From an uncultured Clostridia bacterium (GTDB lineage Bacteria > Bacillota > Clostridia > Christensenellales > UBA1242), in NCBI GenBank assembly GCA_944383915.1, contig CALWRJ010000022.1, forward strand, positions 1 to 36,550: a stretch of 36,550 bases of DNA. Direction: 5' to 3'. A program made the translations under genes and the position numbers. The notes beneath the pieces are model-generated. The model worked only from the letters and a program-made list of their open reading frames with translations. It was not told the origin of the DNA and made no database searches. Positions 1,487 to 19,589 of this stretch are shown in pieces. Positions within the stretch are counted from its first letter, which is position 1. Each line of letters starts with the position of its first letter.

Positions 1487-3250
1487 ATGACTACAAAAAA
1501 ATTAACTACAATAATTTTTGGCGTGCTTTTTGGCATACTCCTTGTGGGCGTTGTTGTTTTATCCGCGCTTTATTCGGTGTTTTTTATGAGTTCTACGGAT
1601 AGTAGTATTGACGAAAGTTACACAATTTCGCGCTACAACACGCAAATAAATGTGTTTGAAAATAGCCGAGCATACATTAGCGAGCAAATCGAAGTTCGAT
1701 ACAATACCACCGACCGCGCTTACGGGCTAACTCGAATATTGCCAAATGTTATTAACACAAATTATTTGGACACGAATAATTCTTATCGACTTAGGTATGA
1801 AATCGACTCGGTTAACCACAGTTACACGATGCAAAATAGAGATGGTGGGGTGGTGCTCAACCTTTTTAACGAAAATACAAACATCGCGACAGGCACTCCA
1901 TACATTTTTAGCATAAATTATTGGGTGTACTTTCCAAATGACAGAGTTAATAATGCTGATAATTTTTATTATGAAATCATTGATAGCAGTTGGGACACGA
2001 CTGTTTCAAATATAACGGTTAGCCTTTCATTTTTTGAAAGTATTCGTGAATATGTAGAAAGTCCAGAGTACGAAACGGCAATTTTTACGACAATAGACGG
2101 CGAAAAAACATCTTTTAGCCCCCTTTTAACGAGTGATACGCGCCTAACTTATACATATACAGGCACACTGCCCGCGCACACGGAATATGTGGTTTCTATT
2201 GGACTTCCAGAAGGCTTTTTTGTGTCCGCCTCGAATGATATATTCGGCATTGTTGCGCTAGTTTTGAGCATTTTAGCAGTTATTTTAGTGCTAATTATTT
2301 TCGCTACTACGCGCTCTAAAAATAAGGTAAAAATTACACCCAGTATAGTTGTGCCGAACGGCGTTAGTCCGCTCGAAGTGCGCTATTTATTAAACCAAAA
2401 AATTTTTGGTAGCGATTTTTATGCCATACTACTTTGTTGGCTCAAATCTCAAAATATCGCGCTCGAAAAAGACGAAAAAGGGCTTTTTGTAACGAAAATC
2501 AAGCCATTAGAAAAGTTAATTAAAGATTATGAAGTCGACTTATTTGATACTATTTTTGCGAAAAGCGATAGGGTAAATATCGAGACGATTAAAGAGATTA
2601 TTTGCGAAAAATTCCCTAGTATTAGCCTAAAAGTTGCCGAAAATGGCGAAAATTCGCTTTATGAGAAAAAATCACTTTTTGGAATGTGGGCAAATTTGCT
2701 AATTCCTTTTGTAGCGCTAATAATTTCGTTAATGCTCGCTATTTCTTATCTAAATTTTATTTCGGTAAATTACATCATAACCTTTGTGTTGGGTGTCGTG
2801 GTAACAGGGCTAGGGGTGGCGCTCCTTCGCCTAAAATTTGTAAAATTTGGCATTAAAAAATCAAAATTTATAGTACTTTCTATACTTTTTGGCGTGCTGA
2901 TACTCGGTGGACTTGTGGCAATCGGGCTACTTGCGGTAAACTTTGATTCGCTTTTAGGAATTGCGCTATTTATCGCGCTTTTTGGCGTTTTGTTAGGAGT
3001 TTTTTCGATAATTATACAAAACTTTTACTCAACTAGGGGAGCAATAATACTCGGCAAAATGCAAGGGCTAAAAAGTTATATCGAGTCTGCCACTGCTGAA
3101 AATTTAGACGAAATAACCAAAAACGAGGAAATGCTACTTAGTGTTTTGCCTTTTGCTGAAATACTAGGGGTAGGGGGGAAGTTATCGCAACTTCGTTGCG
3201 AATTAACAATTAGCAATCTATCACGCAATTACTCGCTTTGCGAGAATTAG
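1487..3250 (+). CDS. DUF2207 family membrane protein with a repeat-encoded C-terminus
   Basis: A 587-residue protein. It has an N-terminal membrane segment (about 8-33), an extracytoplasmic beta-rich domain (about 45-245), a second membrane helix (about 250-272), a cytoplasmic stretch with the family pattern beginning VPNGVSPLEVRYLL, and more helices between about 400 and 510. These are features of DUF2207 proteins, which commonly pair with LemA. The start is supported by AAGGA five bases upstream. The last 21 or so residues are unusual: from nucleotide 3185 the frame runs into a hairpin (TCGCAAC-TTC-GTTGCGA), a heptamer repeat and a second hairpin, and the stop TAG lies inside the repeat. 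The family's usual ending after the LPFAEILGV segment is missing, so the C-terminus was probably replaced by repeat insertion. Function is unknown. Confidence 0.85.
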   Translation: MTTKKLTTIIFGVLFGILLVGVVVLSALYSVFFMSSTDSSIDESYTISRYNTQINVFENSRAYISEQIEVRYNTTDRAYGLTRILPNVINTNYLDTNNSYRLRYEIDSVNHSYTMQNRDGGVVLNLFNENTNIATGTPYIFSINYWVYFPNDRVNNADNFYYEIIDSSWDTTVSNITVSLSFFESIREYVESPEYETAIFTTIDGEKTSFSPLLTSDTRLTYTYTGTLPAHTEYVVSIGLPEGFFVSASNDIFGIVALVLSILAVILVLIIFATTRSKNKVKITPSIVVPNGVSPLEVRYLLNQKIFGSDFYAILLCWLKSQNIALEKDEKGLFVTKIKPLEKLIKDYEVDLFDTIFAKSDRVNIETIKEIICEKFPSISLKVAENGENSLYEKKSLFGMWANLLIPFVALIISLMLAISYLNFISVNYIITFVLGVVVTGLGVALLRLKFVKFGIKKSKFIVLSILFGVLILGGLVAIGLLAVNFDSLLGIALFIALFGVLLGVFSIIIQNFYSTRGAIILGKMQGLKSYIESATAENLDEITKNEEMLLSVLPFAEILGVGGKLSQLRCELTISNLSRNYSLCEN

Positions 3251-3558
3251 CAATTAGCAATTAGCAATTAGCAGTTAATGCTGGGTATAAAATAATATTA
3301 AATACCTTCCTTAATTCCTAATTTAATTTATAGCGATGAGAGTAAAACTCTCATAGTACTATAATAATTGTATAAAATAAATAGTTGCTATTGTTTTTGA
3401 TTAATTAGTAAATGCTTTATTTGTACCTACGAACAAATGTTTAAAAAAATTTTAAGTGTGAAAAAGTAACAAAAATTAAGTTTATTATTTAATTGCTTGC
3501 GCGCACGCGCACATTAACTGCTAATTGCTCATTCTAATTGCTAATTTACGCTTTGCGT
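3232..3558. repeat. Inverted-arm hairpin-capped element E1
   Basis: The left cap is CTCGC-TTT-GCGAG (3232-3244). The left arm is four AATTAGC heptamers ending GCAGTTAATG (3245-3280). The right arm starts CATTAACTGC at 3512, the exact inverse, and continues with TAATTGC-type heptamers. The right cap is ACGC-TTT-GCGT (3548-3558). The core holds a TACCCAGC module in inverse orientation, a perfect hairpin ATGAGAGT-AAA-ACTCTCAT (3336-3354), and a GC-rich palindromic stretch GCGCGCACGCGC near 3500-3511. The element overlaps the DUF2207 stop codon. It probably lies in the 3' untranslated part of that transcript, because the first terminator I see is at 3746. Confidence 0.75.
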
Positions 3559-3559
3559 G

Positions 3560-3735
3560 GCAGATTGCTAATTCCTAATTCTCACAAAGCGAGCAAGATT
3601 GCAAATTGCTAATTCGCGTTTACGCGTTATATTCCTAATTACTCATTCCTAATTACTAATTAATTTTTAGCCTTAACTGCTAATTGCTACCTGCTAATTG
3701 CTAATTCGCGTGTAACGCGTAGCGTTTAATCACTA
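3560..3735. repeat. Further heptamer/hairpin cassettes
   Basis: Three more short hairpins alternate with GCTAATT-type spacers: CTCAC-AAA-GCGAG (3581-3593, one mismatch), CGCG-TTTA-CGCG (3615-3626) and CGCG-TGTAA-CGCG (3707-3719). The last is also present at 13274-13286, and in inverse loop orientation at 15327-15339. No open reading frame is credible here. Confidence 0.7.
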
Positions 3736-3745
3736 AAAATTTAAA

Positions 3746-3779
3746 AAGGGCATAATATAATTATGTCCTTCTCTTTTTT
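3746..3779 (+). terminator. Intrinsic terminator after lemA-DUF2207
   Basis: The stem AAGGGCATAA/TTATGTCCTT (3746-3755 with 3761-3770, one G-U pair) is followed by CTCTTTTTT. It ends the upstream operon about 500 nt after the DUF2207 stop, which implies that repeat element E1 is transcribed. Confidence 0.8.
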
Positions 3780-3825
3780 GACACATAAAAATATTTTGTC
3801 AAAATTTTTTATTTGTTCTCAATGC

Positions 3826-3854
3826 TTTACTTTGCTAAAAAATTATGCTATAAT
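3826..3854 (+). promoter_or_regulatory. Promoter of the large lipoprotein gene
   Basis: TTTACT (3826-3831), a 17 bp spacer and TATAAT (3849-3854), with an upstream TG giving an extended -10. The predicted transcript starts near 3861. An upstream in-frame ATG at 3813 would therefore not be transcribed, which supports the start at 3897. Confidence 0.75.
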
Positions 3855-3896
3855 AAACTCATAAAATCAAGTATTGTTCTTAAAGAAGGGAAATCA

Positions 3897-6800
3897 ATGA
3901 TTTTACAAAAAAATAAAAAATTAAGTTTTAGTATATTTTCAATTTTAATATTATTTGTATCAATGTTTATTTTTGCGGGATGTGGTGGTTCGACACCGAC
4001 ATCTTTTTCCGTTAGTGGTGTAGTTATGTGTGGCTCTACGCCAGTAAAAAATGCGAGCGTTGAAACAGATTTAGGGGTAACAACCACGACTGACGAAACA
4101 GGCGCTTTTTCTATTTCAAACCTTACGACTGCGACAATTTTATCCTTCTCGGCTAGTGGTTATGTATTTACCGAGTCTAAGGTGATTGTAAATAAAGAAA
4201 GTAGCGGAATCGTAGTTAACGCCGAGCAAATGTACACGCTAACTGGTAGGGTGTTATCAAATAATGTCGGGGTGGCTGGCGCGAAAATTATCGTTTCGGG
4301 GCTAGTAAACTTGACTGTTACAAGTGACTCAAACGGTTATTTCACCGCTCCTAATATCGCAGGCGAATCTCATGTGTCTGTTGAAAAGGACGGAATGGTT
4401 TTTGAGACGAAAACCGCGACTATTGATACTAACTACATCGAATTTTCTGGTACGACTTCAATTACTGCCACGGTTAGTGGATCAGACGGGGCAGTGCTAG
4501 AAGTAAACGGCGCGCCGATGTCTTTTGAAAATGGTAAGTATTCGGCAAGTAACATTGCGCTGGGTAGTATTGTAACTCCAAAACTAGATGGCTACCACTT
4601 TGAGCCAACGCAAATGACAGTTTCGCGCGAAAACCAAAATCTCGAATTTACCGCTTATCAACTATACTCAATTACAGGTACGGCTAAAAGTGGCGAAGTT
4701 GGAATTAGTGGTGTAAATATTTTGGTAAATGGAAAAGTTGCTGGCACGAGTAACGCAAACGGCGAATTTGTGCTAAACGACTTATGGGGCGAAAATAATA
4801 TTACTTACTCGCACTCGATTTTTAAATTTACAGGTGAAAAAGTTGACGGAGCGACTGCCTTAACCGCAGTTGGAACATTCAACTTTTCGGGAAAAATCGT
4901 ATCAAATGGCGTGGCGCTTGAAAATGTATTTGTAACATATAATAATGATATAATTTTAACTAACACACTAGGTGAGTTTACGCTAAATGGTGTAATGCTA
5001 GGCGATGAGATAACTTTTAGTAAAGACGGTTTTAGAGAAATAACTCATACTATAAACGCGACTAACTCGATAATTCTCGAAATGGTGGAATACTACGATG
5101 CGACAATCACAATTACTAGCGATGGCGAAGTTTTAGAGGGTGCGAAAATCACTCTTGACGGTGTGGAATATGAAAGCAACGACAGGGGGCAGATTGTTTT
5201 AAATAATTTGATAAAAGATTATTCGGCAACTCTTACTTGTGACGGATACACGAGCGCAGAAATTACTATTTCAAAGCAAAACTCGACTATAAATGTTGCT
5301 TTAAGTAAAATTTTTGATGTAAATATAACAGTCCACAGCGGAAGCACGGTTTTAGCAAATGCTAGCATTACTTACAACGGAACGAGTGCAACTACTAACG
5401 AATTAGGAGAGTTTAGTATATTAAACTTGACAAAGCCAACCGAGATTACGGTAAGTTTTGAAAACTACAATTCAAAAACGCTAACCGCAAGCAAAAATAA
5501 CACTACACTTGATTTTGACCTAGATTACACAATTTCGGGCTATGTGTATAATGGTGCACTCGGGGTAAATGGTGAGATTAAAGCGGAAAGTGGGGCGAGC
5601 GCGCAAATTGTAGATGGTGTTTATTCGATTACCCTAAAAGGCGCGGACAAAATTATCCCTGTTGTAAGTGGGCTAAATTTTACGGAGAGCGAAACAAAGG
5701 GAAATGACACTGTCGACTTCTACGCAAGTTATTCCATCTCGGGTACGCTTATTTCGGAAGATGTGCCTGTTAGCAATGCTATAGTAACTTTATTTGGTGG
5801 TGCTGAACCACAAGAGTATACTACAAAAGCGGACGGAAAGTACGAGTTTAGCGGACTTGCAGGAGTTTACACCTTACTTATAAGCGATTCGCAAGACACA
5901 ACACTTAACCCGCAGTATTATTTGATTACTTGTGGTGGTGAGTATGACTTTAACGCAAACGGATATGCGGTTAGCGGTAGAGTCGAAAGCGGTGGCATCG
6001 GCGTAAGCGGTGTAACGGTGTTCGCTGGTGACAATTCGACCACGACTGATGTTTCGGGAAACTTCACTTTTGATTTGTTAATTGGCGAAACTGTGATTTC
6101 TGCCTTTAAAGAAGGTTATACATTCGATGACGATATCGAAGTTAGTGACGATACAATCGGGCTTGTTATAAATGCGACATACGAAGTTAGCGGAACGGTT
6201 TTAAGTGGCACGACTCCTATTAGCGATGTGTTAGTAACAATTGGCGACAAATCGACCACGACAAATAGCGAAGGCAAGTTTACTCTATTAGGGCTAATAG
6301 GAAATAACGAACTAGTGTTAAGTAAGACGGGCTATTCGTTTACAAATATTAATATAAACGGCTACTTTAACGAAATTATTTACACGACATTTAGTATTTC
6401 GGGTAGCGCTAGTGTCGGCGAACGAGTTATGAGCGGTGCGACAATTTCTAATGGCAAAAACTCGACAACGACTAACGAACTCGGCGAATTTACTTTATCG
6501 GGCGTAAGCATTGGCGAAACTATTACAGCAACTCTTGACGGATACACATTTAATACAATTACAGTAACCGAGTACGGACAAGAGTTTGTTTTTAGCGGTA
6601 CTTATGAAATTAGCGGAACGGTTACCTCGGGCGGACGCGTTGTTGCTAATGTTTTGGTGCAACTCGGCGAATTTAGTACAACGACTGACGCGCTAGGGCG
6701 ATTCACTCTTAAAAATGTAAATGTGTTCGGCGAAATGACCTTTACGCTAGCAGGATACAATTTTAGCCCTGTAAATGTTGATGAACCGAAAGGAAGTCTA

Positions 6801-8441
6801 GATATTATGGCAACATTCGCTGTTAACGGTAAAATAACAATCGGTGGTGTTGGACTTAGCGGTGTTACTATTTCGTCAAATGGAATTAGTACGACAACTA
6901 ATACAAATGGCGAATACACATTAAGCGGACTTTCGACATCGGGATTACTTACCGTTGAAAAATACGGTTATGACTTTGAAGGAACGAAAATATTTACAGG
7001 CGCAAGCACACTTGACTTTACCGCAACTTACTGGGTAACAGTCGTTGTGTCTAGCGGTAGTGTCCAACTAAACGGAATTATCTTGACGCTCGAAAATGGC
7101 AGATACGAGGAAATGGGTAACGGCGTGTTTACCGTTCGTGGACTTGTTGGCGAAAATAAAATTTTTGCCGATGTAAACGGATATAACACGGGCGAAGTGG
7201 TTGTAACTGACCACGCGGAGAATGTGGCAATTAATATGACTTACGATGTAGTGCTAAAAATTAATGGAGCAAAACTTAATAATATAAATATTAGTTATAG
7301 TGACGAAAAGGGAAGTTATACCGACACATTTAGCGACATTCAATATATTTTAAGAACTCTAACTGGTACTGGTAGATTTGAGATTTCGCTTGACGGTTAC
7401 CGCTTTACTCCAAACACCGACTCTTACTCAATTCCTAAAACGGTAGAAATTAGTTATCAAGCCGTTTATACGGTAAGCGGACGCGTTACTACTAATAATG
7501 GAGTTGGGGTAAGCAATATGGAAATATCCTTTAAAGATGTTTCGACAACTACTGATACAGACGGAAATTATACTCTTACGGGGCTCATCGGTGACGGAAC
7601 GCTTTATGCGACACTTAGTGCGACCAACTGCGATACAGTTTTAAAATCAGCATATGTTTCAACATCGACTACGGTAAACTTTACTGTATCTGACTCTGAG
7701 TATGCTTGGTGGTTATTCCAAAGCGGTTACCAAAAACTTCGCGATTCTGAAACAGGGTATTTTAGCGAAACAAAGGGAAGTGTTAGGTCTGTTGTTGACC
7801 TTGGATTGACTCAAATTAATGTTAATCAAACTGTTTATTCTACAAAGCAAATGGAAAGAAAAGACGGACAAACTAGATACCTAACGCTAAACAGCAACTA
7901 TGGAACTACTTTTAAAGATACAAGAGTTGCCGTAGTTGGCTATTATGACGGAAACAGTTTACAGTATAAACATATAACAGGAGATAGTGTAAATAAACCT
8001 GATGGAAATGGCGTAGTAACTGGTAATTTTAGTGGTAGTTGGAATACAAATCTTGATTTAACGGGCTTTAAGGGTACCTATGGCTCTGAACCAACAGGAC
8101 TATATATTTACAATTTAACTAGCGCGTACTTTAACACGACTGTTTCAAGGTCAGGTGATAGTTTAACATTTACAGTAACAGTTGATAACCCTAGTGATAG
8201 TTTTGTTGCAAACTATAAAATACAAATGGCTTCACTTTCTGGGGTTGACCCTAGCGATGTAACATTTAAGAGTATAGCGCTAACTTACACATACGATTTA
8301 AACGGTAATTTAAAGAGCGTATATAGTAATGAAAGTTACGATGTTTATTACGGAGTTAATGCTAATACAACTTCAACGCTAACCGAAACATTTACAACGG
8401 ACGCAAGCAAGAGCGCAATTGACTTGAGTAAGTACGAGTAA
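3897..8441 (+). CDS. Giant lipoprotein of about 17 carboxypeptidase-regulatory-like repeats
   Basis: A 1514-residue exported lipoprotein. The start ATG at 3897 has an AGAAGGG-type binding site; the upstream in-frame ATG lies before the promoter. The signal peptide ends in the lipobox FAGC, with Cys29 the likely lipidated residue. From about residue 34 to 1264 there are about 17 repeats of 65-80 residues. Each opens with a motif like YEVSGTVLSGTTPISDV, continues with STTTNSEGKFTL, and ends near a GY(T/S)F turn. This is the pattern of carboxypeptidase-regulatory-like/CnaB-type beta-sandwich repeats. The last 250 or so residues (from SEYAWWLFQSGYQKL) form a different domain that I do not recognise. 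It is probably an extracellular stalk carrying a terminal binding or enzymatic domain. The next gene, also a large surface protein, follows after 105 bp with no visible terminator. Confidence 0.8.
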   Translation: MILQKNKKLSFSIFSILILFVSMFIFAGCGGSTPTSFSVSGVVMCGSTPVKNASVETDLGVTTTTDETGAFSISNLTTATILSFSASGYVFTESKVIVNKESSGIVVNAEQMYTLTGRVLSNNVGVAGAKIIVSGLVNLTVTSDSNGYFTAPNIAGESHVSVEKDGMVFETKTATIDTNYIEFSGTTSITATVSGSDGAVLEVNGAPMSFENGKYSASNIALGSIVTPKLDGYHFEPTQMTVSRENQNLEFTAYQLYSITGTAKSGEVGISGVNILVNGKVAGTSNANGEFVLNDLWGENNITYSHSIFKFTGEKVDGATALTAVGTFNFSGKIVSNGVALENVFVTYNNDIILTNTLGEFTLNGVMLGDEITFSKDGFREITHTINATNSIILEMVEYYDATITITSDGEVLEGAKITLDGVEYESNDRGQIVLNNLIKDYSATLTCDGYTSAEITISKQNSTINVALSKIFDVNITVHSGSTVLANASITYNGTSATTNELGEFSILNLTKPTEITVSFENYNSKTLTASKNNTTLDFDLDYTISGYVYNGALGVNGEIKAESGASAQIVDGVYSITLKGADKIIPVVSGLNFTESETKGNDTVDFYASYSISGTLISEDVPVSNAIVTLFGGAEPQEYTTKADGKYEFSGLAGVYTLLISDSQDTTLNPQYYLITCGGEYDFNANGYAVSGRVESGGIGVSGVTVFAGDNSTTTDVSGNFTFDLLIGETVISAFKEGYTFDDDIEVSDDTIGLVINATYEVSGTVLSGTTPISDVLVTIGDKSTTTNSEGKFTLLGLIGNNELVLSKTGYSFTNININGYFNEIIYTTFSISGSASVGERVMSGATISNGKNSTTTNELGEFTLSGVSIGETITATLDGYTFNTITVTEYGQEFVFSGTYEISGTVTSGGRVVANVLVQLGEFSTTTDALGRFTLKNVNVFGEMTFTLAGYNFSPVNVDEPKGSLDIMATFAVNGKITIGGVGLSGVTISSNGISTTTNTNGEYTLSGLSTSGLLTVEKYGYDFEGTKIFTGASTLDFTATYWVTVVVSSGSVQLNGIILTLENGRYEEMGNGVFTVRGLVGENKIFADVNGYNTGEVVVTDHAENVAINMTYDVVLKINGAKLNNINISYSDEKGSYTDTFSDIQYILRTLTGTGRFEISLDGYRFTPNTDSYSIPKTVEISYQAVYTVSGRVTTNNGVGVSNMEISFKDVSTTTDTDGNYTLTGLIGDGTLYATLSATNCDTVLKSAYVSTSTTVNFTVSDSEYAWWLFQSGYQKLRDSETGYFSETKGSVRSVVDLGLTQINVNQTVYSTKQMERKDGQTRYLTLNSNYGTTFKDTRVAVVGYYDGNSLQYKHITGDSVNKPDGNGVVTGNFSGSWNTNLDLTGFKGTYGSEPTGLYIYNLTSAYFNTTVSRSGDSLTFTVTVDNPSDSFVANYKIQMASLSGVDPSDVTFKSIALTYTYDLNGNLKSVYSNESYDVYYGVNANTTSTLTETFTTDASKSAIDLSKYE

Positions 8442-8546
8442 AACTGTATTATTTGCAAGAAAGACTAAAAAAACAATAAAATACTACAAAAATTCGACAA
8501 AAATTTTAAAAAATTAAAATTATCGCGATAAGCGAGCAGGTGAAAA

Positions 8547-12929: not shown

Positions 12930-13090
12930 AAATTGATAAAATTTAACAAAATATACTAAAATTAAACAAAAAATCAATATTTTGAATAAAATAATTAATA
13001 CATTGGTAAGTTAGTATATTTTATTGAGCAAAATAAATAGTTTTTACAGTATATTTTGTTCAAAATTATCTAAATACAATCAATAAGTTT

Positions 13091-13124
13091 AAAAGAGTGC
13101 AAAAACCACCGCACTCTTTTTTGT
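13091..13124 (+). terminator. Intrinsic terminator after the MBG surface protein
   Basis: A perfect stem AAAAGAGTGC/GCACTCTTTT with a ten-base loop, followed by TTGTTTTGTT. It lies about 160 bp after the stop codon; the A-rich stretch between holds no gene. Confidence 0.85.
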
Positions 13125-13183
13125 TTTGTTAAGAAGGGCTTTTATAAAGTGACGAATAGTGAGCATTTTGTATAGAATTAAGA

Positions 13184-13286
13184 ATTTTGAATTAAGGAGT
13201 TAATATCTAAAAATAATTTTATAATTAGAAATACCTTCCTTAACTGCTAATTGCTAATTGCTCATTGCTAATTCGCGTGTAACGCG
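13184..13286. repeat. Half element closely matching 19483-19589, with a different hairpin cap
   Basis: About 90 bp here nearly match the right half of element E4: a GAATTAAGGAGTTA start, an ATAATTTTATAATTAGAAAT middle, then CCTTCCTTAACTGC and a heptamer arm. The match stops at the cap. Here the cap is CGCG-TGTAA-CGCG (13274-13286); in E4 it is TTCGCAAC-AAA-GTTGCGAA. No left arm is visible, so this is a half copy or solo end. Confidence 0.75.
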
Positions 13287-13355
13287 TAAGATTGCTAATT
13301 AAAGAAAAAATAACAGTATTGCATAATTAAGAAAATGCCATAATAAAATTAAACT

Positions 13356-13685
13356 ATGATAAAAGTATTAGAGCAATCGACTCGCAACACGCTACTTTAC
13401 ACTTGTGTGGCGGGCGACACATTAGAAAGTATCGCAAACAAGTTTGGTATCACGACAAGTGATATTTTGCGCGATAACCCGCTTTTTTCGTCAGTGTATC
13501 CAGGGTGCGTGCTGTATTTAACAAATCTCGGTAAAAAGCGAGTAATCGTTGCACCGCTCGAAACTTTGGACGACATCGCAAAAAGATACAATGTAACAGT
13601 TGACGAGATTATGAAAACTAATAACCTTGTCACTCGCAAAGTTTTTGTAGGTATGCAACTTTTAATAGACAAAAAAGGGGAGTAG
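13356..13685 (+). CDS. Two-LysM-domain protein
   Basis: A 109-residue protein made almost entirely of two LysM domains: about residues 14-55 (YTCVAGDTLESIANKFGI through GCVLYL) and 61-105 (VAPLETLDDIAKRYNV through GMQLLI). LysM domains bind N-acetylglucosamine-containing glycans such as peptidoglycan. No signal peptide is visible, so export or spore-coat-type localisation is uncertain. No convincing Shine-Dalgarno site precedes the ATG. An extended -10-like TGCCATAAT ends only 11 bases upstream, so the transcript could have almost no leader. The flippase gene begins three bases after the stop, indicating a two-gene operon with a cell-envelope theme. Confidence 0.82.
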   Translation: MIKVLEQSTRNTLLYTCVAGDTLESIANKFGITTSDILRDNPLFSSVYPGCVLYLTNLGKKRVIVAPLETLDDIAKRYNVTVDEIMKTNNLVTRKVFVGMQLLIDKKGE

Positions 13686-13688
13686 GCG

Positions 13689-15203
13689 TTGGCAAAATCA
13701 CTATTTCGTGCAGTATTGATAGTTGCGGGGTTCTCGGTGTTAACTCGATTTTTCGGGTTTCTTTTCCGCATTTATCTATCTCGCGAATTAGGACCCGAGT
13801 TGTTAGGCGTGTATCAAGTGGCTTCGTCAGTGTTTGGCGTGTTATCCGTGTTGGTGGCAAGTGGAATACCGCTCGCCATTTCAAAACTAACCGCAAAATA
13901 CCGAGTTTTAAAAGACATTAAGTCCGAAAATTCGGTGACTACTAGCGCGCTAATAATCGGCGTAACTGTGGCAATTTTATTGTGTTTGGTAATTGTGCTT
14001 TTCCGTGACTTTTTCGGCAAACTTTTTACTGACGAGCGGTGCATTTATATTTTAATAACACTTTTGCCAGCGGTAATCGCGGGGGCGGTTTATTCGGCGT
14101 TTCGTGGCTCGTTATGGGGCACGCAAAATTATTTTAGCGTGTGCTGGACGGAGTTAGCCGAACAGGTTTTGCGCATAGTTATATTCGTTATAATGGCTAA
14201 TTTCTTGTATATGGGGCTTGATAAGGCGAGTATGGCTGGGTGGTCGCTGTCTATTGCGTGTATAATAAGCGCGCTTTTAGCAATGATTGTGTACTTTAAA
14301 AGTGGCAAAAGGCTTGCGAATCCGCGCGGATATTTTCGCCCTGTATTAAACTCGGCAGTGCCTGTAACAGGAGTGCGGACAGCGAGCAGTTTAATTCAGC
14401 CTGTGATTGCCGTTTTATTTCCTGCTATGCTTGTACTCGCTGGATACACAAACGAGCAAGCAATGGCTAGTTACGGAATGGCAATGGGAATGACTTTTCC
14501 GCTCCTTTTTTTGCCGTCTACAATAGTTGGCGCGCTATCTTTTACGCTAATTCCCGAACTCTCAACCGCGATTGCGAAAAACGAAAAAGAACTAATTGCA
14601 AACCGCATAAAGACAAGCCTAATTTTCGCAGTTTTTATTTCGGCAATGGTAATTCCTTTTTATATGGGAGTAGGTGAGCCAATCGGCAAATTTTTATACA
14701 ATAATTCGGCAAGCGGATTATATCTCGCGCGCGCCGCGTGGGTAATGCTTCCGCTCGGGCTAAGTAATATCACAAGTAGCATACTAAATTCGTACAATCT
14801 CGAAGTCAAGAGTTTTATAAATAATATAATAGGTGGCGTCTTGCTTTTAGGCATAATCGCTGGTTTTAGCGGGCTAATGGGTGTCGATGCGCTAATTTGG
14901 GGCTTCGGCGCGTGTATGACGGTAACAACGCTTTTAAATCTTTATATGCTAAAACGCCACACTAAACTCTCTTTTGGGCTTGTAAAACCGACTCTATTAA
15001 TGATTGCCTTTTTAATTCCTTGCACACTGCTTGCGTATTTTTCGTATCCTTTGCTCGAAATTGCCTTTCCGCAGTTTTTAGCAATCGCCTTGTCCGCAGT
15101 TTTAAGTATGGGCTGTTTTGCACTCATGTGCTGGATATTTAAAATTATAGATTTTACCGCAGTGCTTGTAAAAATTAAACCAAAAGCAGTAAAGAGACAA
15201 TAA
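13689..15203 (+). CDS. SpoVB/MurJ-like polysaccharide or lipid-linked precursor flippase
   Basis: A 504-residue polytopic membrane protein with about 14 hydrophobic helices. It belongs to the MOP superfamily, in the SpoVB/YtgP/MurJ-like polysaccharide-transport branch. The N-terminus shows the family pattern (VLTRFFGFLFRIYLSRELGP, then GVYQVASSVFGVLSVLVASGIPLAISK). Members move lipid-linked cell-wall or polysaccharide precursors across the membrane; in spore formers SpoVB acts in cortex synthesis. The start is TTG at 13689 with GGGGAG seven or so bases upstream, overlapping the end of the LysM gene. The stop TAA is followed without a gap by the hairpin CTCGC-AAA-GCGAG of a repeat array, so a repeat sits exactly at the gene end. 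I cannot separate SpoVB from a MurJ or YtgP paralogue without a tree. Confidence 0.83.
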   Translation: MAKSLFRAVLIVAGFSVLTRFFGFLFRIYLSRELGPELLGVYQVASSVFGVLSVLVASGIPLAISKLTAKYRVLKDIKSENSVTTSALIIGVTVAILLCLVIVLFRDFFGKLFTDERCIYILITLLPAVIAGAVYSAFRGSLWGTQNYFSVCWTELAEQVLRIVIFVIMANFLYMGLDKASMAGWSLSIACIISALLAMIVYFKSGKRLANPRGYFRPVLNSAVPVTGVRTASSLIQPVIAVLFPAMLVLAGYTNEQAMASYGMAMGMTFPLLFLPSTIVGALSFTLIPELSTAIAKNEKELIANRIKTSLIFAVFISAMVIPFYMGVGEPIGKFLYNNSASGLYLARAAWVMLPLGLSNITSSILNSYNLEVKSFINNIIGGVLLLGIIAGFSGLMGVDALIWGFGACMTVTTLLNLYMLKRHTKLSFGLVKPTLLMIAFLIPCTLLAYFSYPLLEIAFPQFLAIALSAVLSMGCFALMCWIFKIIDFTAVLVKIKPKAVKRQ

Positions 15204-15339
15204 CTCGCAAAGCGAGAATTGCTTTGCGAGAATTAGCAATTAGCAATCTTACGCGATGCACGCGAATTAGCAATTAGCAATTAGCAATCTTACTCGCTTT
15301 GCGAGAATTAGCAATTAGCAATCTTACGCGTTACACGCG
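15204..15339. repeat. Array of alternating hairpin cassettes and AATTAGC heptamers
   Basis: Four cassettes stand in a row directly after the flippase stop codon: CTCGC-AAA-GCGAG (15204-15216) plus a partial CTTTGCGAG (15222-15230), CGCG-ATGCA-CGCG (15252-15264), CTCGC-TTT-GCGAG (15293-15305) and CGCG-TTACA-CGCG (15327-15339). Between them are AATTAGC heptamers in two or three copies, each spacer ending in ATCTTA. Stem type alternates while the spacers stay nearly identical. Confidence 0.85.
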
Positions 15340-15719
15340 AATTAGCAATTAGCAATTAGCAATTAGCAATTGTTGGGCGCTAGCGCGCAAGCGATTTATA
15401 GATAAATTAAACTTCCTTTTTTAATTAATCAAAAACAAAATAAAGAAATGTAAAAAAATTTACGGACTTCCGCGCATTTATGCGCTATTGGGAGTGCGCC
15501 CTCCTTGAAGTATCACGGGGTGATACGGAAAGTCTGGCGAAAGTGATAGTGGTTATAGGATATATAGCAACACGACAGCCCGCACCGCACCGCGCGTAGC
15601 GGAAATAATTAATAATTAGAAATTAGGAATTAGGAATTAAGGCTGAAATAACTAAATTATTTTAATGCTTGCGCGCTAGCGCACATTAATTGCTAATTGC
15701 TAACTGCTAATTGCTAATT
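15327..15719. repeat. Inverted-arm hairpin-capped element E2
   Basis: The left arm (15340-15372) is four AATTAGC heptamers followed by AATTG; the right arm (15688-15719) is the inverse type. Just inside each arm lies an inverted copy of a GC-rich block: GGGCGCTAGCGCGCAAGC at 15375-15392 matches the inverse of 15667-15684 at 17 of 18 positions, and both contain the palindrome GCGCTAGCGC. The core (about 15393-15666) holds the structured candidate at 15465-15552. No coding frame is credible. The symmetrical layout looks like a non-autonomous mobile element. Confidence 0.72.
15465..15552 (+). ncRNA. Candidate structured RNA with a four-helix junction
   Basis: The closing stem is GACTTCC (15465-15471) with GGAAAGTC (15527-15534, one bulged A). 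It encloses three hairpins: GCGCA-TTTA-TGCGC (15472-15485), GGAG-TGCGCC-CTCC (15491-15504) and GTATCAC-GGG-GTGATAC (15510-15526). The closing stem abuts the first and third hairpins without a gap, as in stacked junctions. CCTTGAAG, the third hairpin and GGAAA correspond to copies at 547 and 19401, where the stem is GTGTGC/GCACAC, so base pairing is kept while the sequence changes. Downstream CGAAAGTGATAGTGG resembles CGAAAGTAAGAGTAA of copy A. There is no cloverleaf anticodon or CCA, so it is not a tRNA. Transcription is unproven. Confidence 0.45.
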
Positions 15720-15739
15720 TGAGCGTAGCGATAAAAATT

Positions 15740-15933
15740 TTTGTTTTGAATGCGAAAATGTTTTGCGCACGCGCAATACTTTTCGCCTAACAATAAAACA
15801 AATAAAATAAATCAAAAAATAATAAAATAAAACAAAAAAGTACCAAAAAACAAATAAAACTTAATAAAATTTAAAAAAACAACAAAAAAATTAAAATTTG
15901 CATAAAAAAATTACAATTCGACAAAATAGCAGT
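15740..15933. other. A-rich leader region before the DUF421 gene
   Basis: The region is strongly biased to A over T, with many TAAAA and AACAAA words. I see no gene and no convincing promoter. Similar A-rich tracts in the same strand sense precede or follow other plus-strand genes (about 8455-8530, 12930-13000, 23985-24180). Confidence 0.4.
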
Positions 15934-16647
15934 ATGATTATAATATTGTTTAGAGTTTTAATAGTTTATTTGATTGTTTTACTGTACTTGCGCATAATGG
16001 GGAAGCGCCAGTTAGGCGAAATGCAACCTTTCGAACTCGTCATTACACTGCTAATCGCCGACATTGCAACACTCCCAATGACACAAACAAGTATGCCAAT
16101 TCTATTTAGTTTCGTGCCTTTGACCGCGCTTGTAATACTCCACTTTATAGTGTCCCTGCTCGCACGAAAAAGCATTGTTATGCGAAAAGTGATAAACGGC
16201 AAGCCCGTCCTTGTTGTTACCCCTGACGGCGTGCAGTATGACGCACTAAAAGAATTAAATATGTCGCTAGACGACCTTATGGAAGGGATTCGCAGTTGCG
16301 ATTACTTTAATATCGAGGACGTGCTGTACGCAATCGTTGAAACAAATGGAACAATTAATGTTATCCCTAAAATTGCGAGCGCAGGCGTAACAAACGAAAA
16401 CCTAAAATTAACTTTGCCCGAGTCAACTTTGCCTATGATGCTAGTGTCCGCTGGCAAAATTATCAACAACAATATGAAAACCGCAAAAATTACCCCTGAT
16501 TTTATCGAAAACTTGCTAAAAAAAGCCGAAATTGACGACATTAAGAAAATTTTACTTTTGACTATCGATACCGAAGGCAAGGTGTACATTCAAACGGTTG
16601 ACGGCGAAAGCAAAAACTTGCAGGTAGACTATAAGGGCGAGTGGTAG
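15934..16647 (+). CDS. DUF421 (YetF-like) membrane protein
   Basis: A 237-residue protein with about three N-terminal membrane helices followed by a soluble alpha/beta domain. Family signatures are LRIMGKRQLGEMQPFELVI near the N-terminus, then GKPVLVV and the MSLDDLMEGIRSCDYFNIEDVLYAIVE stretch in the cytoplasmic domain. DUF421/YetF proteins are widespread in Bacillota and their function is poorly defined. I start it at ATG 15934 because MIIILFRVLIVYLIVLL matches the usual first helix; a TTG 36 bases upstream adds unlikely residues. No strong ribosome binding site is visible before either. The DUF4363 gene follows after 7 bp; this gene pair is common in Clostridia. Confidence 0.88.
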   Translation: MIIILFRVLIVYLIVLLYLRIMGKRQLGEMQPFELVITLLIADIATLPMTQTSMPILFSFVPLTALVILHFIVSLLARKSIVMRKVINGKPVLVVTPDGVQYDALKELNMSLDDLMEGIRSCDYFNIEDVLYAIVETNGTINVIPKIASAGVTNENLKLTLPESTLPMMLVSAGKIINNNMKTAKITPDFIENLLKKAEIDDIKKILLLTIDTEGKVYIQTVDGESKNLQVDYKGEW

Positions 16648-16654
16648 GTGAACT

Positions 16655-17038
16655 ATGACGAAAAGATTAATTGCAATTTTGGTGTTGGTGCTAGTTTTAT
16701 TTGGTGTAGTAATCACCGAACAAGTGTACACGGACACAAAAATCAATGACTTACTTGAAAATGTTGCCCTGCTCGAAAGCGAAATCATTGCCGAAAATCT
16801 TGAAAATAGCAAAGTTTTAGCCCAAAAAGTCGTGGATATGTGGAACGAGTACGAAAAAGTGATTTGCTTGTTTGTCGATTTTAGGGATATTGAGCAAATA
16901 GGCAGGCAAACAGACCTCGTGCTTTCTCACCTAAATAATGGCGACTTCGAACTCGCGCGAGTCGAATGTAACACTTTAGAGCGCGTCATCGAAACATTTA
17001 ATAATATGGTGCGCTTCGACTGGCAAAATATTTTGTAG
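16655..17038 (+). CDS. DUF4363 family protein
   Basis: A 127-residue protein with one N-terminal membrane segment (about 4-22) and a helical extracytoplasmic domain of about 100 residues (KVVDMWNEYEKVICLFVDFRDIEQI). The size, the topology and the position directly after a DUF421 gene fit the DUF4363 family, whose role is unknown. AGGTG lies five bases upstream of the ATG, and the gap to the upstream stop is 7 bp, so translation is probably coupled. The bidirectional terminator at 17090 ends the pair. Confidence 0.78.
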   Translation: MTKRLIAILVLVLVLFGVVITEQVYTDTKINDLLENVALLESEIIAENLENSKVLAQKVVDMWNEYEKVICLFVDFRDIEQIGRQTDLVLSHLNNGDFELARVECNTLERVIETFNNMVRFDWQNIL

Positions 17039-17089
17039 GATGGTATAAGTGTTTATTAATTAGAAATTCTTTTTGAAATTAAAATAAAA

Positions 17090-17126
17090 AAACTTTGCAG
17101 TTGTAAATAACTACAAAGTTTTTAAT
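17090..17126. terminator. Bidirectional terminator between DUF4363 and HAD genes
   Basis: The stem AACTTTG/CAAAGTT (17091-17097 with 17114-17120) encloses a smaller AGTT/AACT pairing. It is flanked by A-runs on the left and T-runs on the right, so it can terminate transcripts in both directions. It abuts the stop codon of the minus-strand HAD gene. Confidence 0.8.
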
Positions 17127-17826
17127 TTTTGGTATTACTTAGGCTCGGCTCTTTTGTTATTCCGCAAAATTTGAGAATTTGCGTGAGATTTTCGCAGTTT
17201 TCAATGCCGTTGTGCCAGACTTTCGTGTTTTTAATGTCCGCGTCATCTGGGTTTATGCACAAAGTATTTACTCCGCTTAAATACACTTTTTCATCGTTTG
17301 CACCATTGCCAACAAATAAAATTTCATCACTATTTAGGTTATATTCCTTTTTAATAAGGTCGATGTACTCATTTTTGTTTTCAGGGTTGTGCAAATTTGG
17401 ACGCTTTAACCCGAGCAACTTGCCATTTTCATCAAAAATTAAGTCGTAAGTTTCAATTGAAGTGATAAATTTATCAACTTTTTCTCTCTTTAAAGTGTCC
17501 TCGATAATTTGTCTAATTCCACCAGACAAAATGAAAATTTTAATATCAAATTTGTAGAGTTGCTCGAGCGTTTCGTAAGTGCCAGGGAGTAGGGCGATGC
17601 TTTTAGAAATTTCGTGCAAATACTCTCGGCGAACATCAATTTGCTTGTATCGCTCAATTATCAACTCAAACCACTTTTTATCGTCAAATTCTTTGCGCTT
17701 GTACTTGTCATACAAAAAATTATCGTAGTCTAAGTCGTCCATATATTTCCAAACTTCGTACCAACAATTGCTCCCTTTTCGGCTCTTTGTTAGCGTTCCG
17801 TCAAAATCAAAAACTATTGCTTTCAT
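17122..17826 (-). CDS. HAD-superfamily phosphatase, phosphoserine-phosphatase-like
   Basis: A 234-residue soluble protein with all HAD motifs: FDFDGTLT (nucleophile Asp7, acid/base Asp9), ILSGG for motif II, a Lys-containing region KREKVDKF, and FVGNGANDE for motif IV. The helical cap between motifs I and II (about residues 15-85) places it in the HAD-IB type with SerB-like enzymes, acting on a small phosphorylated metabolite. The C-terminal NTKN tail is slightly long. AGGAGA precedes the ATG. The gene is transcribed alone on the minus strand and ends at the terminator shared with the DUF4363 gene. The substrate cannot be told from sequence. Confidence 0.85.
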   Translation of the reverse strand: MKAIVFDFDGTLTKSRKGSNCWYEVWKYMDDLDYDNFLYDKYKRKEFDDKKWFELIIERYKQIDVRREYLHEISKSIALLPGTYETLEQLYKFDIKIFILSGGIRQIIEDTLKREKVDKFITSIETYDLIFDENGKLLGLKRPNLHNPENKNEYIDLIKKEYNLNSDEILFVGNGANDEKVYLSGVNTLCINPDDADIKNTKVWHNGIENCENLTQILKFCGITKEPSLSNTKN

Positions 17827-18060
17827 AACTTTCTCCTATTTTATATTAAAAATTTCTTTTAAGTAGGGTATCATTTTTATAAATTTTTGTCAAATATTAT
17901 ATTTTAGGCACTTTTAGAAATTTTAAGTTGGTATTTCCTAAATAAAGTATTATGCATAGTACTATGCAACACATTTTGCGCAGAGTAGTACTTTTATTTA
18001 AGGGTTTTTGGCAAAATTTTGAATAAACAGTATTTAAGCGCTTTTTCGTAAAAACTTTAT
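17827..18060. promoter_or_regulatory. HAD gene upstream region with a perfect 16-bp palindrome
   Basis: The region contains TGCATAGTACTATGCA (17953-17968), identical to its own reverse complement, preceded by the related AAGTATTATGCA. The same AGTA(C/T)TATGCA word recurs several times at 32380-32501. It could be a dimeric regulator site about 130 bp upstream of the HAD start, or another small repeat. No gene is visible. Confidence 0.45.
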
Positions 18061-18094
18061 AAAAAGGCTATTTTCTAAATTTTAGATAGCCTTT
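18061..18094 (-). terminator. Intrinsic terminator after the small membrane protein
   Basis: The stem AAAAGGCTAT/ATAGCCTTTT, with A- and T-runs outside, lies about 60 bp beyond the stop of the minus-strand gene at 18156. It could work in both directions, but only the minus strand has a gene that needs it. Confidence 0.75.
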
Positions 18095-18155
18095 TATTAG
18101 TTTTTTAATAATAATTTTTTATTTTTTTAACCACTTAATTTTTTTAAACAAAAAA

Positions 18156-18557
18156 CTAGCGCTTTCTCTCTTGCTTTTCTAGTTGCTTTTGCTCTTTTAA
18201 AAGTTCGCGCTCTTGCTTGTGTCTTTCTTTTAATTGCTCAGTAGTAGGGTAATATTCGTCAAATATTTTTTGTGCGTCATCTTTTGAATAATTTAGGTGA
18301 ATTTGCGCAATTTCAAAACAATCTCGACTTACAAAATATGAAATTATTGATAAACCAAATGAGCCAAGCCCTACGCCTAAGGGTAGTATAAATTCACTAT
18401 CCGAAAGATACGCCGCAACTGAAAAGACAAGCATAAAATTCCCAAATTTGCTTGCGTTTATTGCAAAATTCCCAAACTTTTTCGAAGCCATTATGCTAGT
18501 TTCATAGTTGTCAAAAATTTCATTGCTGTTTTCATTTTCCATTTCGATTTCTTTCAT
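18156..18557 (-). CDS. Small membrane protein of unknown function
   Basis: A 133-residue protein that I do not recognise. It has an acidic N-terminus, two hydrophobic segments (about residues 37-56 and 58-75) and a charged C-terminal helix rich in Lys, Glu and Gln (KERHKQERELLKEQKQLEK) that probably forms a coiled coil. A possible promoter lies upstream (TTGCAA, 17 bp, TAAACT on the minus strand). The start is uncertain: ATG at 18557 or a second ATG five codons later; neither has a clear ribosome binding site. Element E3 begins about 50 bp upstream of it. Confidence 0.6.
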   Translation of the reverse strand: MKEIEMENENSNEIFDNYETSIMASKKFGNFAINASKFGNFMLVFSVAAYLSDSEFILPLGVGLGSFGLSIISYFVSRDCFEIAQIHLNYSKDDAQKIFDEYYPTTEQLKERHKQERELLKEQKQLEKQERKR

Positions 18558-18605
18558 AATGCTAGTAGTTTATCATATTTTAGGTTATTTTGCAAGAGGG
18601 GGATA

Positions 18606-18858
18606 GAGCGTAAGCGCAAAGGCTTACGCTCAAATTAGCAATTAGTAATTAGCAATTAGCAGTTAAGGAAGGGTATAGATTTCGCGCGCTTGCGCGCTAT
18701 TGAGTCCGCGGGGACTCTATCCCCGCCGCCGTCCGCGTAGGACATAAAATAATAATTAGTAATTAAGGCTGAAATAACTAAATTATTTTAATGCTTGCGC
18801 GCACGCGCACAATAACTGCTAATTGCTAATTGCTCATTGCTAATTCTTGCGAAGCAAG
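18606..18858. repeat. Inverted-arm hairpin-capped element E3
   Basis: The left cap is a 10-bp perfect stem GAGCGTAAGC/GCTTACGCTC (18606-18631). The left arm is four heptamers (one AATTAGT variant) ending AGTTA (18633-18665). The right arm starts TAACTGC at 18813. The right cap is CTTGC-GAA-GCAAG (18846-18858), followed by an outer CTCGC-TTT-GCGAG (18873-18885) inside the XRE gene. The core has three GC-rich hairpins at 18684-18743. The inner right block (GGCTGAAATAACTAAATTAT, then a GCTTGCGCGC palindrome) closely matches element E2 at about 15640-15685. Confidence 0.75.
18684..18743 (+). other. GC-rich hairpin cluster with two exclusive pairings
   Basis: The hairpins are GCGCGC-TT-GCGCGC (18684-18697), GAGTCC-GCGG-GGACTC (18702-18717) and GTCC-GCGTA-GGAC (18731-18743). 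The second can be replaced by GCGGGG (18708-18713) with CCCCGC (18721-18726), so two structures compete for the same bases. It sits in the core of E3, in the place taken by the four-helix candidate in E2; both share a GCGC hairpin followed by TATTG(A/G)G. Confidence 0.45.
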
Positions 18859-18866
18859 TTACTTTT

Positions 18867-19118
18867 CTAATTCTCGCTTTGCGAGTCAATATTCTTTTTA
18901 TCAAATAATTTATCATTAAAAAATTCGCCGAGAGTTATATCAAGCGCGTTGCAAATTTTTTGCAAAACTTTTAAGTGCATACTCTCATTTGCTTGATTTA
19001 AAATATTTGTAATTGTGTTTTGGGTAATGCCTGATATTGTGGCAAGTTCAACTTGCGTCATTTCTTTTTCAACTAATAAGTCGCCAAGCCTTAATGCAAC
19101 CGCAGTCATTAATTTCAT
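18867..19118 (-). CDS. XRE/Cro-CI family transcriptional regulator
   Basis: An 83-residue single-domain DNA-binding protein. Helix-turn-helix residues run from about 12 to 68 (LLVEKEMTQVELATISGITQNTITNIL, then LKVLQKICNALDITLGEFF), the standard XRE pattern. AAGGGG lies about ten bases upstream of the first ATG (19118); a second ATG three codons later is less well placed. The last residues (DSQSEN) are encoded by the repeat hairpin CTCGC-TTT-GCGAG, and the stop codon is the AATTAG that follows it, so the C-terminus is repeat-derived. There is no sensor domain. The target is unknown; no phage gene is nearby. Confidence 0.85.
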   Translation of the reverse strand: MKLMTAVALRLGDLLVEKEMTQVELATISGITQNTITNILNQANESMHLKVLQKICNALDITLGEFFNDKLFDKKNIDSQSEN

Positions 19119-19298
19119 AATTTTTTTACCCCTTTTGAAAATTTTATCATAAGTTTGTTATTTTTAGCAAATAATCTTTGTAAAATTTTTGTGTAATGCC
19201 GAAAATTATCAATATAACAGCATTTTTCACCTAAATTACACAATGATTTGGGAAAGTAGTTTGCTCGAAAAGCGAGGTTTAGTAATCTTGCTCGCTTT

Positions 19299-19589
19299 CT
19301 CGCTTTGCGAGAATTAGCAATTAGCAATTAGCAGTTATTGTGCGCGTGCGCGCGAAGCAATTTATAGATATATAAACTTCCTTATAATATTTAAATTTTG
19401 CCTTGGAGTGTGCAATGCACACGGAAAACTAGCTTTAAAAATAGAGTAATTGTCAAAGTGAAAGGCTCACGGCTGAACTTTGAATTTTGAATTACGGAGT
19501 TATTTCCAAAAATAATTTTATAATTAGAAATTCCTTCCTTAACTGCTAATTGCTAATTGCTCATTGCTAATTCGCAACAAAGTTGCGAA
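19299..19589. repeat. Inverted-arm hairpin-capped element E4
   Basis: The left cap is CTCGC-TTT-GCGAG (19299-19311), preceded by a partial copy. The left arm is three AATTAGC heptamers and AGTTA (19312-19337). The right arm is TAACTGC and heptamers (19540-19572). The right cap is TTCGCAAC-AAA-GTTGCGAA (19571-19589). Inside the left arm is GTGCGCGTGCGCGC followed by ATTTATAGAT, matching E2 near 15375-15400. The core carries the structured module at 19401-19483. It ends about 95 bp before the ftsH -35 box. Confidence 0.78.
19401..19483 (+). other. Structured module, copy C
   Basis: The first 28 bases, including CCTTGGAG and the GTGTGC-AAT-GCACAC hairpin (19408-19422), are identical to copy A at 547. 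The spacer differs. Then the stem TCAAAGT/ACTTTGA (19453-19459 with 19477-19483) is conserved, with GTGA/TCAC inside. Conservation of both stems around a changed spacer suggests that the folded form matters. Confidence 0.6.

Follow-up and report, generated by a model that had tools for sequence, protein, structure and literature searches.

A probable genome-wide burst of hairpin-capped mosaic repeats with heptanucleotide arms in an uncultured Clostridia bacterium

We analyzed a 36,550-nucleotide stretch of DNA from an uncultured Clostridia bacterium (GenBank assembly GCA_944383915.1, contig CALWRJ010000022.1; hereafter the window) and the gene-free elements within it, in which inverted arms of tandem heptads such as AATTAGC flank a core and are capped by small hairpins. 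These elements probably represent a genome-wide, species-level burst of noncoding, nonautonomous mosaic repeats that resemble repetitive extragenic palindromic (REP) sequences and miniature inverted-repeat transposable elements (MITEs), were moved in trans, and were reshuffled through their heptads. The sequence-only reading of the window had placed four loci with heptad arms and hairpin caps in it; on rereading the coordinates we found all four where they had been described, and the heptads were far above the shuffle expectation. Among 200 dinucleotide shuffles, (AATTAGC)2 on either strand was found 0.01 times on average and (AATTNNN)3AATT 0.005 times, with a maximum of one in each case, while the window contains 23 and 9, respectively.

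Copies were numerous elsewhere in the host genome (G000; 1,184,381 bp in 23 contigs, the window being contig C22). The arm (AATTAGC)3 gave 38 + 67 matches and the inner junction TAACTGCTAATTGC was found 111 times in the 1.18 Mb, the reversed control giving none for either. We surveyed 36 stretches of this genome, picked around matches and totaling 197,939 bp, and defined an array as three or more AATT placed 7 bp apart, bridging one-mismatch positions; this resulted in 225 heptad arrays. The AATTAGC arms that the sequence-only reading had proposed to seek in the genome and its relatives were thus found in many copies at home, while (AATTAGC)3 was present in none of the 98 relatives screened, nine of them congeneric. 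In the window, the flippase gene (13689–15203; Pfam Polysacc_synt) is separated by 694 bp from the YetF gene starting at 15898. Through the flippase protein, we found eight relatives in which the gene order is conserved, and in all of them the distance between the tblastn alignments was 9–196 bp, and at most 64 bp in seven (pieces of up to ~40 amino acids [aa] were dropped). No (AATTNNN)2AATT run was present in the flippase–YetF loci of these eight.

The smallest recurring unit consists of a hairpin cassette, an (AATTNNN)n arm, an AT-rich core of ~45 bp, an inverted heptad array and, often, another hairpin cassette. The dominant arm types are S (AGC), R (AGG, AGA, AGT), and T (TTG), named by the bases following AATT. 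Consecutive arrays within 500 bp of each other were convergent in 51 cases, in the same direction in 94, and divergent in 14; the convergent gaps were 39–62 bp long in 34 of the 51, which defines the small unit as an arm, a ~45-bp core, and an inverted arm. Among the 94 same-direction gaps, 17 were of 16–18 bp and 14 of 23 bp; these lengths roughly match a hairpin cassette, either alone or together with one extra heptad. The cores are assembled from a few interchangeable half-sites: they open with AATT-AAGG, -ATGG, -ACGG, or -GTGG, or with AGTTAAGG, and close with the inverse. The four window loci had been read as sharing one plan; the arms, caps, and cores are indeed there, but the loci are composites of these smaller units.

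The two arms around a short core are rarely of the same type. The 36 arm pairs comprised 16 S–T, 11 R–S, 7 R–T, and 2 R–R combinations and no S–S, and the two homotypic cases compare with a mean of 10.7 on re-pairing (P = 0.00045; 2 of 33 and P = 0.00035 after deduplication of the cores). Convergent pairs with gaps of 66–499 bp were of the same type in six cases and different in eight; the composites show inverted S...S arms, whereas 34 of the 36 units with a ~45-bp core carry two arm types. The simple terminal inverted repeats of the sequence-only reading are therefore not the rule for the small units, and a plain MITE with matching terminal inverted repeats fits them poorly. In our reading, perfect palindromes that were long and enclosed only a short loop would have been lost, and the heterotypic arms would be those that remained; the alternative is a built-in difference between left and right.

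The caps are structural cassettes in which a stem–loop of 5, 3, and 5 nucleotides is kept while the letters of the stem change. The 61 occurrences represent 23 distinct 13-mers, at least two of them plainly not caps, and the stem–loop is followed on its 3' side by TAAGATT in 28 cases or by a variant (TAAAATT 12, TAAGAC 12, GTAGATT 6, GTAAATT 3). Watson–Crick pairing within the 23 13-mers was 0.78 compared with 0.58 for re-paired halves, and none of 5,000 re-pairings was as high, although the distinct cassettes are related and the events not independent. Nine of the 23 were fully paired, with the stems CTCGC, CTTGC, CACGC, and CGCGT. The swapped caps and changing heptad number of the sequence-only reading are supported. 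As DNA, two window stretches folded strongly, with z of –4.8 and –3.6, and so did a unit of the distant genome G361, described below, with –6.4; the folds of two other window units were weak (z of –1.5 and –1.65). The L094 stretch that was folded lies next to its element and is disregarded here.

Comparison of the genome against itself provided cases in which whole modules are present in one array and missing from a paralogous one. Of the 737 candidate pairs passing the filter, 26 were listed and two are relied on here. A 92-bp stretch at 448–539, made of a heptad, a core, an S-type end, and a hairpin side, lies inside a heptad array of the window, and the paralogous array in stretch L086 lacks it. 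The second is an 80-bp palindromic module at 547–626 on the plus strand, CCTTGGAG..TGCACAC..GTGAGTGGCTCACGGCTG.., which sits between AATTTTG-type heptads and is missing from the paralogous array at L065:13470–13650; another window copy lies near 19401–19481. The paralogous pairs have AATT or heptads at both edges, and many of the 26 listed pairs break, by eye, inside heptads. The other listed pairs were mostly heptad-to-heptad exchanges, a few being unrelated protein-gene or AT repeats. In G361, the element is found in three paralogous rrn spacers, in one of which the right arm has exactly three heptads fewer; with all three copies filled and no other genome of its genus in the comparison set, G361 offered no empty rrn site. 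The heptad arrays would lengthen and shorten by slippage and serve as homology tracts for the swapping of cores and caps.

The arrays are almost exclusively extragenic. All but one of the 225 lie outside open reading frames (ORFs) of at least 70 aa, though 77% of the surveyed sequence is coding, and the exception, within a surface-protein gene, looks like a chance occurrence; the gene-free nature of the elements in the sequence-only reading is supported, and the family is multicopy. Considering ORFs of at least 90 aa, gaps with arrays were tandem in 40 cases, convergent in 15, and divergent in 2, compared with 48, 4, and 9 for gaps without arrays. The region C10:193–212 kb (L065), which encodes dnaA, a gyrB-type gene, a RecF/SMC-type gene, clpX, clpP, and trigger factor, holds 14 of the 111 inner junctions in ~1.5% of the genome. 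Within tandem gaps of the surveyed stretches, S arrays ran along the direction of transcription in 50 cases against 16, largely tandem copies of the dnaA region.

The heptad-arm plan recurs in other genomes. The pattern (AATTNNN)4AATT was found in 22 of 398 genomes sampled from the phylum, host included, with 355 forward matches, and in 7 of 99 when the relatives and the host were considered. In the same 398 genomes, the corresponding frames TTAA, ATAT, and TATA were found in 12 (83 matches), 6 (13), and 7 (23), the counts being uncorrected for base composition and some arrays (AATTAAG) counting for both AATT and TTAA. In IMG/VR, at least 120 stretches carried a longer heptad pattern (80 loci listed) and no contig contained (AATTAGC)3AGTTA. 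In the congeneric genome G006, the arrangement hairpin-(AATTGAA)n-AGTTAAGGC(T/A)G corresponds to the inner junction of the host with the heptad replaced. The junction pattern matched 50 times in the host, 3 times in G006, and once in each of six other genomes; the single matches look like background since the reversed control also gave singles in four genomes.

G361, which belongs to another family of the phylum, contained the repeats at at least 40 places from 86 matches (40 of 132 candidates scored). Inspection of 17 of 30 loci gave units consisting of (AATTNNN)n, AATT-ATGG, -GTGG, or -AAGG, usually two GC hairpins, CCTT-AATT, and inverted heptads. The motif NNGG, mostly as RHKG, ends 77 of 196 arrays in the host (12.8 expected) and 30 of 46 distinct arrays in G361 (3.3 expected), and in both genomes its position was above all others among twelve offsets. 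The core opening AATTAAGGAAGG is common to the two genomes and absent from 716 kb of viral loci and from 135 kb of loci in eight relatives; its raw count of 10 in G361 is inflated by overlapping stretches, and 7 of 42 deduplicated half-sites start with AAGGAAGG. A universal AATT-NNGG rule fails outside these two genomes (14 of 208 viral arrays, with 22.4 expected; G275, 0 of 6; G141, 1 of 4; G087, 0 of 2; a mixed set of six genomes, 0 of 13).

What is unusual is the AATT frame with replaceable bases: congeneric species have it in common, and the distant G361 shares it together with the core opening. A bolder reading, which we hold only tentatively, is an element class without a name: its ends would be arrays in which AATT returns every 7 bp while the remaining three bases can be replaced wholesale from species to species. 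A constant opening (AATT-NNGG, mostly RHKG, or AGTTAAGG) would come next, the hairpin caps would be interchangeable, and an enzyme would read or cut at AATT. The idea draws on the NNGG excess and AATTAAGGAAGG in the two genomes, on AGTTAAGGC being kept with AATTGAA heptads in G006, and on AATT heptads being found in more of the phylum genomes than the other frames. A footprint origin of the heptad, in which 4 bp of duplicated AATT would be joined by 3 bp left behind on excision, was rejected except as a speculation within this bolder reading: the core ends (AAG/CTT) are no source of the common NNN triplets (AGC, AGG, TTG).

The family fits the definition of no named family that we tested. Like REPs, bacterial interspersed mosaic elements, and REP doublets forming hairpins (REPINs), as far as portrayed in the available parts of PMC3733652 and PMC3116915, it has small hairpins, inverted pairs, and mosaic clusters in extragenic DNA between tandem and convergent genes; it differs in its heptad arms and in a ~45-bp core with fixed ends. 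Inverted doublets in extragenic space are found here. GTAG was present in 6 of the 61 caps and each time 3' of the palindrome, the motif being 5' of it in REPs. An unpaired GTAG or CGTC at one palindrome end does not characterize the caps, nor was a REP-associated tyrosine transposase (RAYT) gene flanked by the repeats found. The MITE-/REP-like nonautonomous element of the sequence-only reading stands as far as the copies are gene-free, multiple, and absent from the orthologous gap in the eight relatives; its membership of the REP/RAYT or MITE families is not supported. An origin as a REP/REPIN-type element mobilized by a RAYT (Y1) transposase that is now broken or lost appears improbable to us, even with the inverted hairpin pairs, a placement as reported for REPs (PMC3733652, in the text available), and the alternative stems of REP subfamilies described in the accessible literature. 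A broken Y1 gene does exist: the only Y1_Tnp match of the genome is interrupted by two in-frame stops and lies more than 1.5 kb from any heptad array, unlike the arm-flanked Y1 or HUH transposase that the sequence-only reading had proposed to seek. No intact RAYT was found in the genome, part of which reads as masked and may hide another copy. Y1_Tnp does not clearly track the heptads: of the heptad-positive genomes tested, 9 of 18 carried it, as did 1 of 4 genomes of the same genus that lack heptad matches. As had been noted for the window, no transposase was found among its 23 proteins (Pfam; nine ORFs overlapping these were left out), nor among ten proteins from C10 and C2. Under the reading that we favor, the units would have spread as nonautonomous elements acted on in trans by some enzyme. 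We consider it equally improbable that the elements are host-useful 3' structures, such as transcribed hairpins acting as terminators or stabilizers of mRNA, or origin-proximal sites organizing the chromosome. The array edges lie at a median of 38 bp from the neighboring 3' end and 149 bp from the 5' start, divergent gaps are nearly avoided, the RNA fold of 15327–15719 has a z of –12, and copies cluster around dnaA and gyrB-type genes; yet tolerance of insertions also predicts a 3' placement, the same flippase–YetF gap is without the element in relatives, and the copies vary as mosaics instead of keeping to a single conserved form.

A further explanation involves no mobility: ordinary 7-nucleotide slippage repeats would have arisen beside terminators and hairpins, with gene conversion alone spreading them. 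In most genomes, according to earlier work cited in the available part of PMC4679880, no long simple repeats are more abundant than heptanucleotide ones, for which polymerase slippage has been proposed, and the array in G361 changes its length in whole heptads. Slippage alone does not, however, create inverted arms, ~45-bp cores with fixed ends, or covarying caps, nor does it account for the sister species G006, where the inner junction is kept but the heptad is a different one, and we regard this explanation as unlikely, if somewhat less so than the preceding two. The TAACTGA heptamers of Beggiatoaceae, cyanobacteria, and Bacteroidetes are similarly sporadic and intergenic, with 7-nucleotide indels, mixed heptamers, and absence in some close relatives; they form direct arrays, which in the genome studied best mostly lie a short way upstream of start codons, and the accessible part of their description contains no arm–core–arm plan or caps (PMC4679880). 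The stem repeats of the Nostoc trnL intron P6b (TDNGATT/NNTGAGT) likewise place 7-nucleotide repeats on both sides of a stem–loop, gain and lose whole repeats, and replace one repeat class with another while keeping the structure (PMC4476775, as far as accessible). Those lie inside one group I intron, whereas the present elements are dispersed and intergenic with a core, caps, and short-core arms of differing type; membership was rejected as an Rfam scan of the window at gathering score gave six tRNAs and no other match. BrickBuilt, a minisatellite MITE of Porphyromonas gingivalis, combines a tandem repeat in an intergenic element with small inverted-repeat ends but has a 23-nucleotide unit and one array instead of two inverted heptad arms (PMC4596501, in the portion available). 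The Foldback and Galileo elements of Drosophila are eukaryotic, and Galileo has, in the sources at hand, transposase-coding sequence, which was not found here. The available parts of PMC4853749 and PMC3542288 describe MITEs and no such arm–core–arm plan, and six heptad-dimer strings had no match in the literature searched, which leaves out most subscription papers and does not show absence from print.

Several observations weigh against a burst of mobile elements. The breakpoints lie in repeated heptads, where recombination or slippage would explain the presence and absence of modules as well as insertion. The sequence-only reading had named empty sites and target duplications as a check; the orthologous gap is short in eight relatives, and no target duplication beyond AATT was seen in the paralogous pairs. 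No transposase with arms was found, the genome-wide search covering the Y1_Tnp family alone. Single changes inside AATT are absent from R arrays (0 of 29) and make up 2 of 11 in T arrays, but S arms vary there too (28 of 38), so that a strict AATT rule fits the R arrays and fails in the S arrays. Outer hairpins of at least 5 bp beside arrays with RHKG ends (12 of 91 in the host, 8 of 36 in G361) are enriched over the controls (0.051 and 0.037) but far from universal. Finally, the comparison covered one genome per species.

Small bacterial repeats are usually sorted into REPs or MITEs. Swappable hairpins and heptads on an AATT frame in two distant genomes suggest a common enzyme or a repeatable way of building such DNA, either of which would offer a handle on the origin and spread of heptanucleotide repeats. 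On the practical side, the elements lie within ~150 bp of an end of contigs C2, C5, C8, C10, and C18 of the assembly. The start of L083 (C18) and the end of L086 (C10) have the same tRNA-side sequence beside the element, and the assembly appears to be broken by these repeats at the ends of C18 and C10.

Other arrays and similarities were of a different kind. G275, a one-contig genome without a Y1_Tnp match, has a dispersed 146-bp MITE-like repeat (L094, L096, L099) whose ends read GATAT..ATATC and which has AATTTAC/AAC/GAC arms on either side; this form lacks NNGG, and G275 is a cleaner system in which to seek the enzyme. In G087 (L106, 1854–2340), heptad arms surround the palindrome GTCATTCTGAGCGAAGCGAAGAATC, which we take to be a common repeat of metagenome-assembled genomes. 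Two elements each had one short match (of 45 bases in one case and 33 in the other) to a single Pseudanabaena plasmid, 100 kb of which contained no array of four AATT; the Pseudanabaena plasmid NZ_AP017563.1 carries a short GCTAATT-type heptad run at uraD (18662–18703; L248). Window positions 3232–3735 had no match in phages, and one viral array none in plasmids.

Within the window, the mosaic at 1–800 contains a plus-strand T-type array (AATTTTG; 86–110), a plus-strand R/T-type array (430–461) followed by a core that opens with AATTAAGGAAGG and closes before AACTGCTAATTGC, the two modules described above, and a minus-strand S-type arm with the cap CTTGCGAAGCAAG (698–735; cap 723–735). The 3232 element consists of the cap CTCGCTTTGCGAG (3232–3244), a plus-strand S arm (AATTAGC)n ending in GCAGTTA (3245–3277), a noncoding core (3278–3514), and, on the minus strand (3515–3558), an inverted S arm starting with TAACTGC (3515–3547) and the cap ACGCTTTGCGT (3548–3558); partial arms and caps follow in tandem (3560–3735). 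A DUF2207 ORF (1487–3250) enters this element and, by eye, its stop is the TAG inside an AATTAGC heptad. A single small unit at 13176–13286 has a T arm (13176–13193), a 55-bp core, an S arm (13241–13273), and the cap CGCGTGTAACGCG (13274–13286). The partial copies reported for 1–800, 3560–3735, and 13184–13286 are thus real.

Leading into the 15327 locus, plus-strand S arms are in tandem with hairpin cassettes between them (15204–15371), the final cap being at 15327–15339 and the final arm at 15340–15371. After a long core holding palindromic modules (15372–15606), an R arm (15607–15638), a 49-bp core opening with AATTAAGGCTG, and an inverted S arm (15687–15719) make up 15607–15719, giving 15327–15719 the order S arm, long core, R arm, 49-bp core, S arm. 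The 19299 element has a plus-strand cap (19299–19311) and S arm (19312–19337), a core with a GTGCGCGTGCGCGC hairpin and the CCTTGGAG module (19338–19539), and a minus-strand inverted S arm (19540–19572) with the cap CGCAACAAAGTTGCG (19573–19587). In the 18606 element, a plus-strand cap (18606–18631) and S arm (18633–18665) are followed by the core (18666–18812) and a minus-strand inverted S arm (18813–18845) with the cap CTTGCGAAGCAAG (18846–18858). The exact inverse inner ends GCAGTTA and TAACTGC, claimed for three loci, were confirmed as facing pairs at 3264–3277/3515–3528, 18652–18665/18813–18826, and 19324–19337/19540–19553, and the 15327 locus is without such a pair. A minus-strand ORF of 83 aa (18867–19118) with a Cro/C1-type helix-turn-helix (HTH_26) ends next to the 18606 element, at its outer hairpin.

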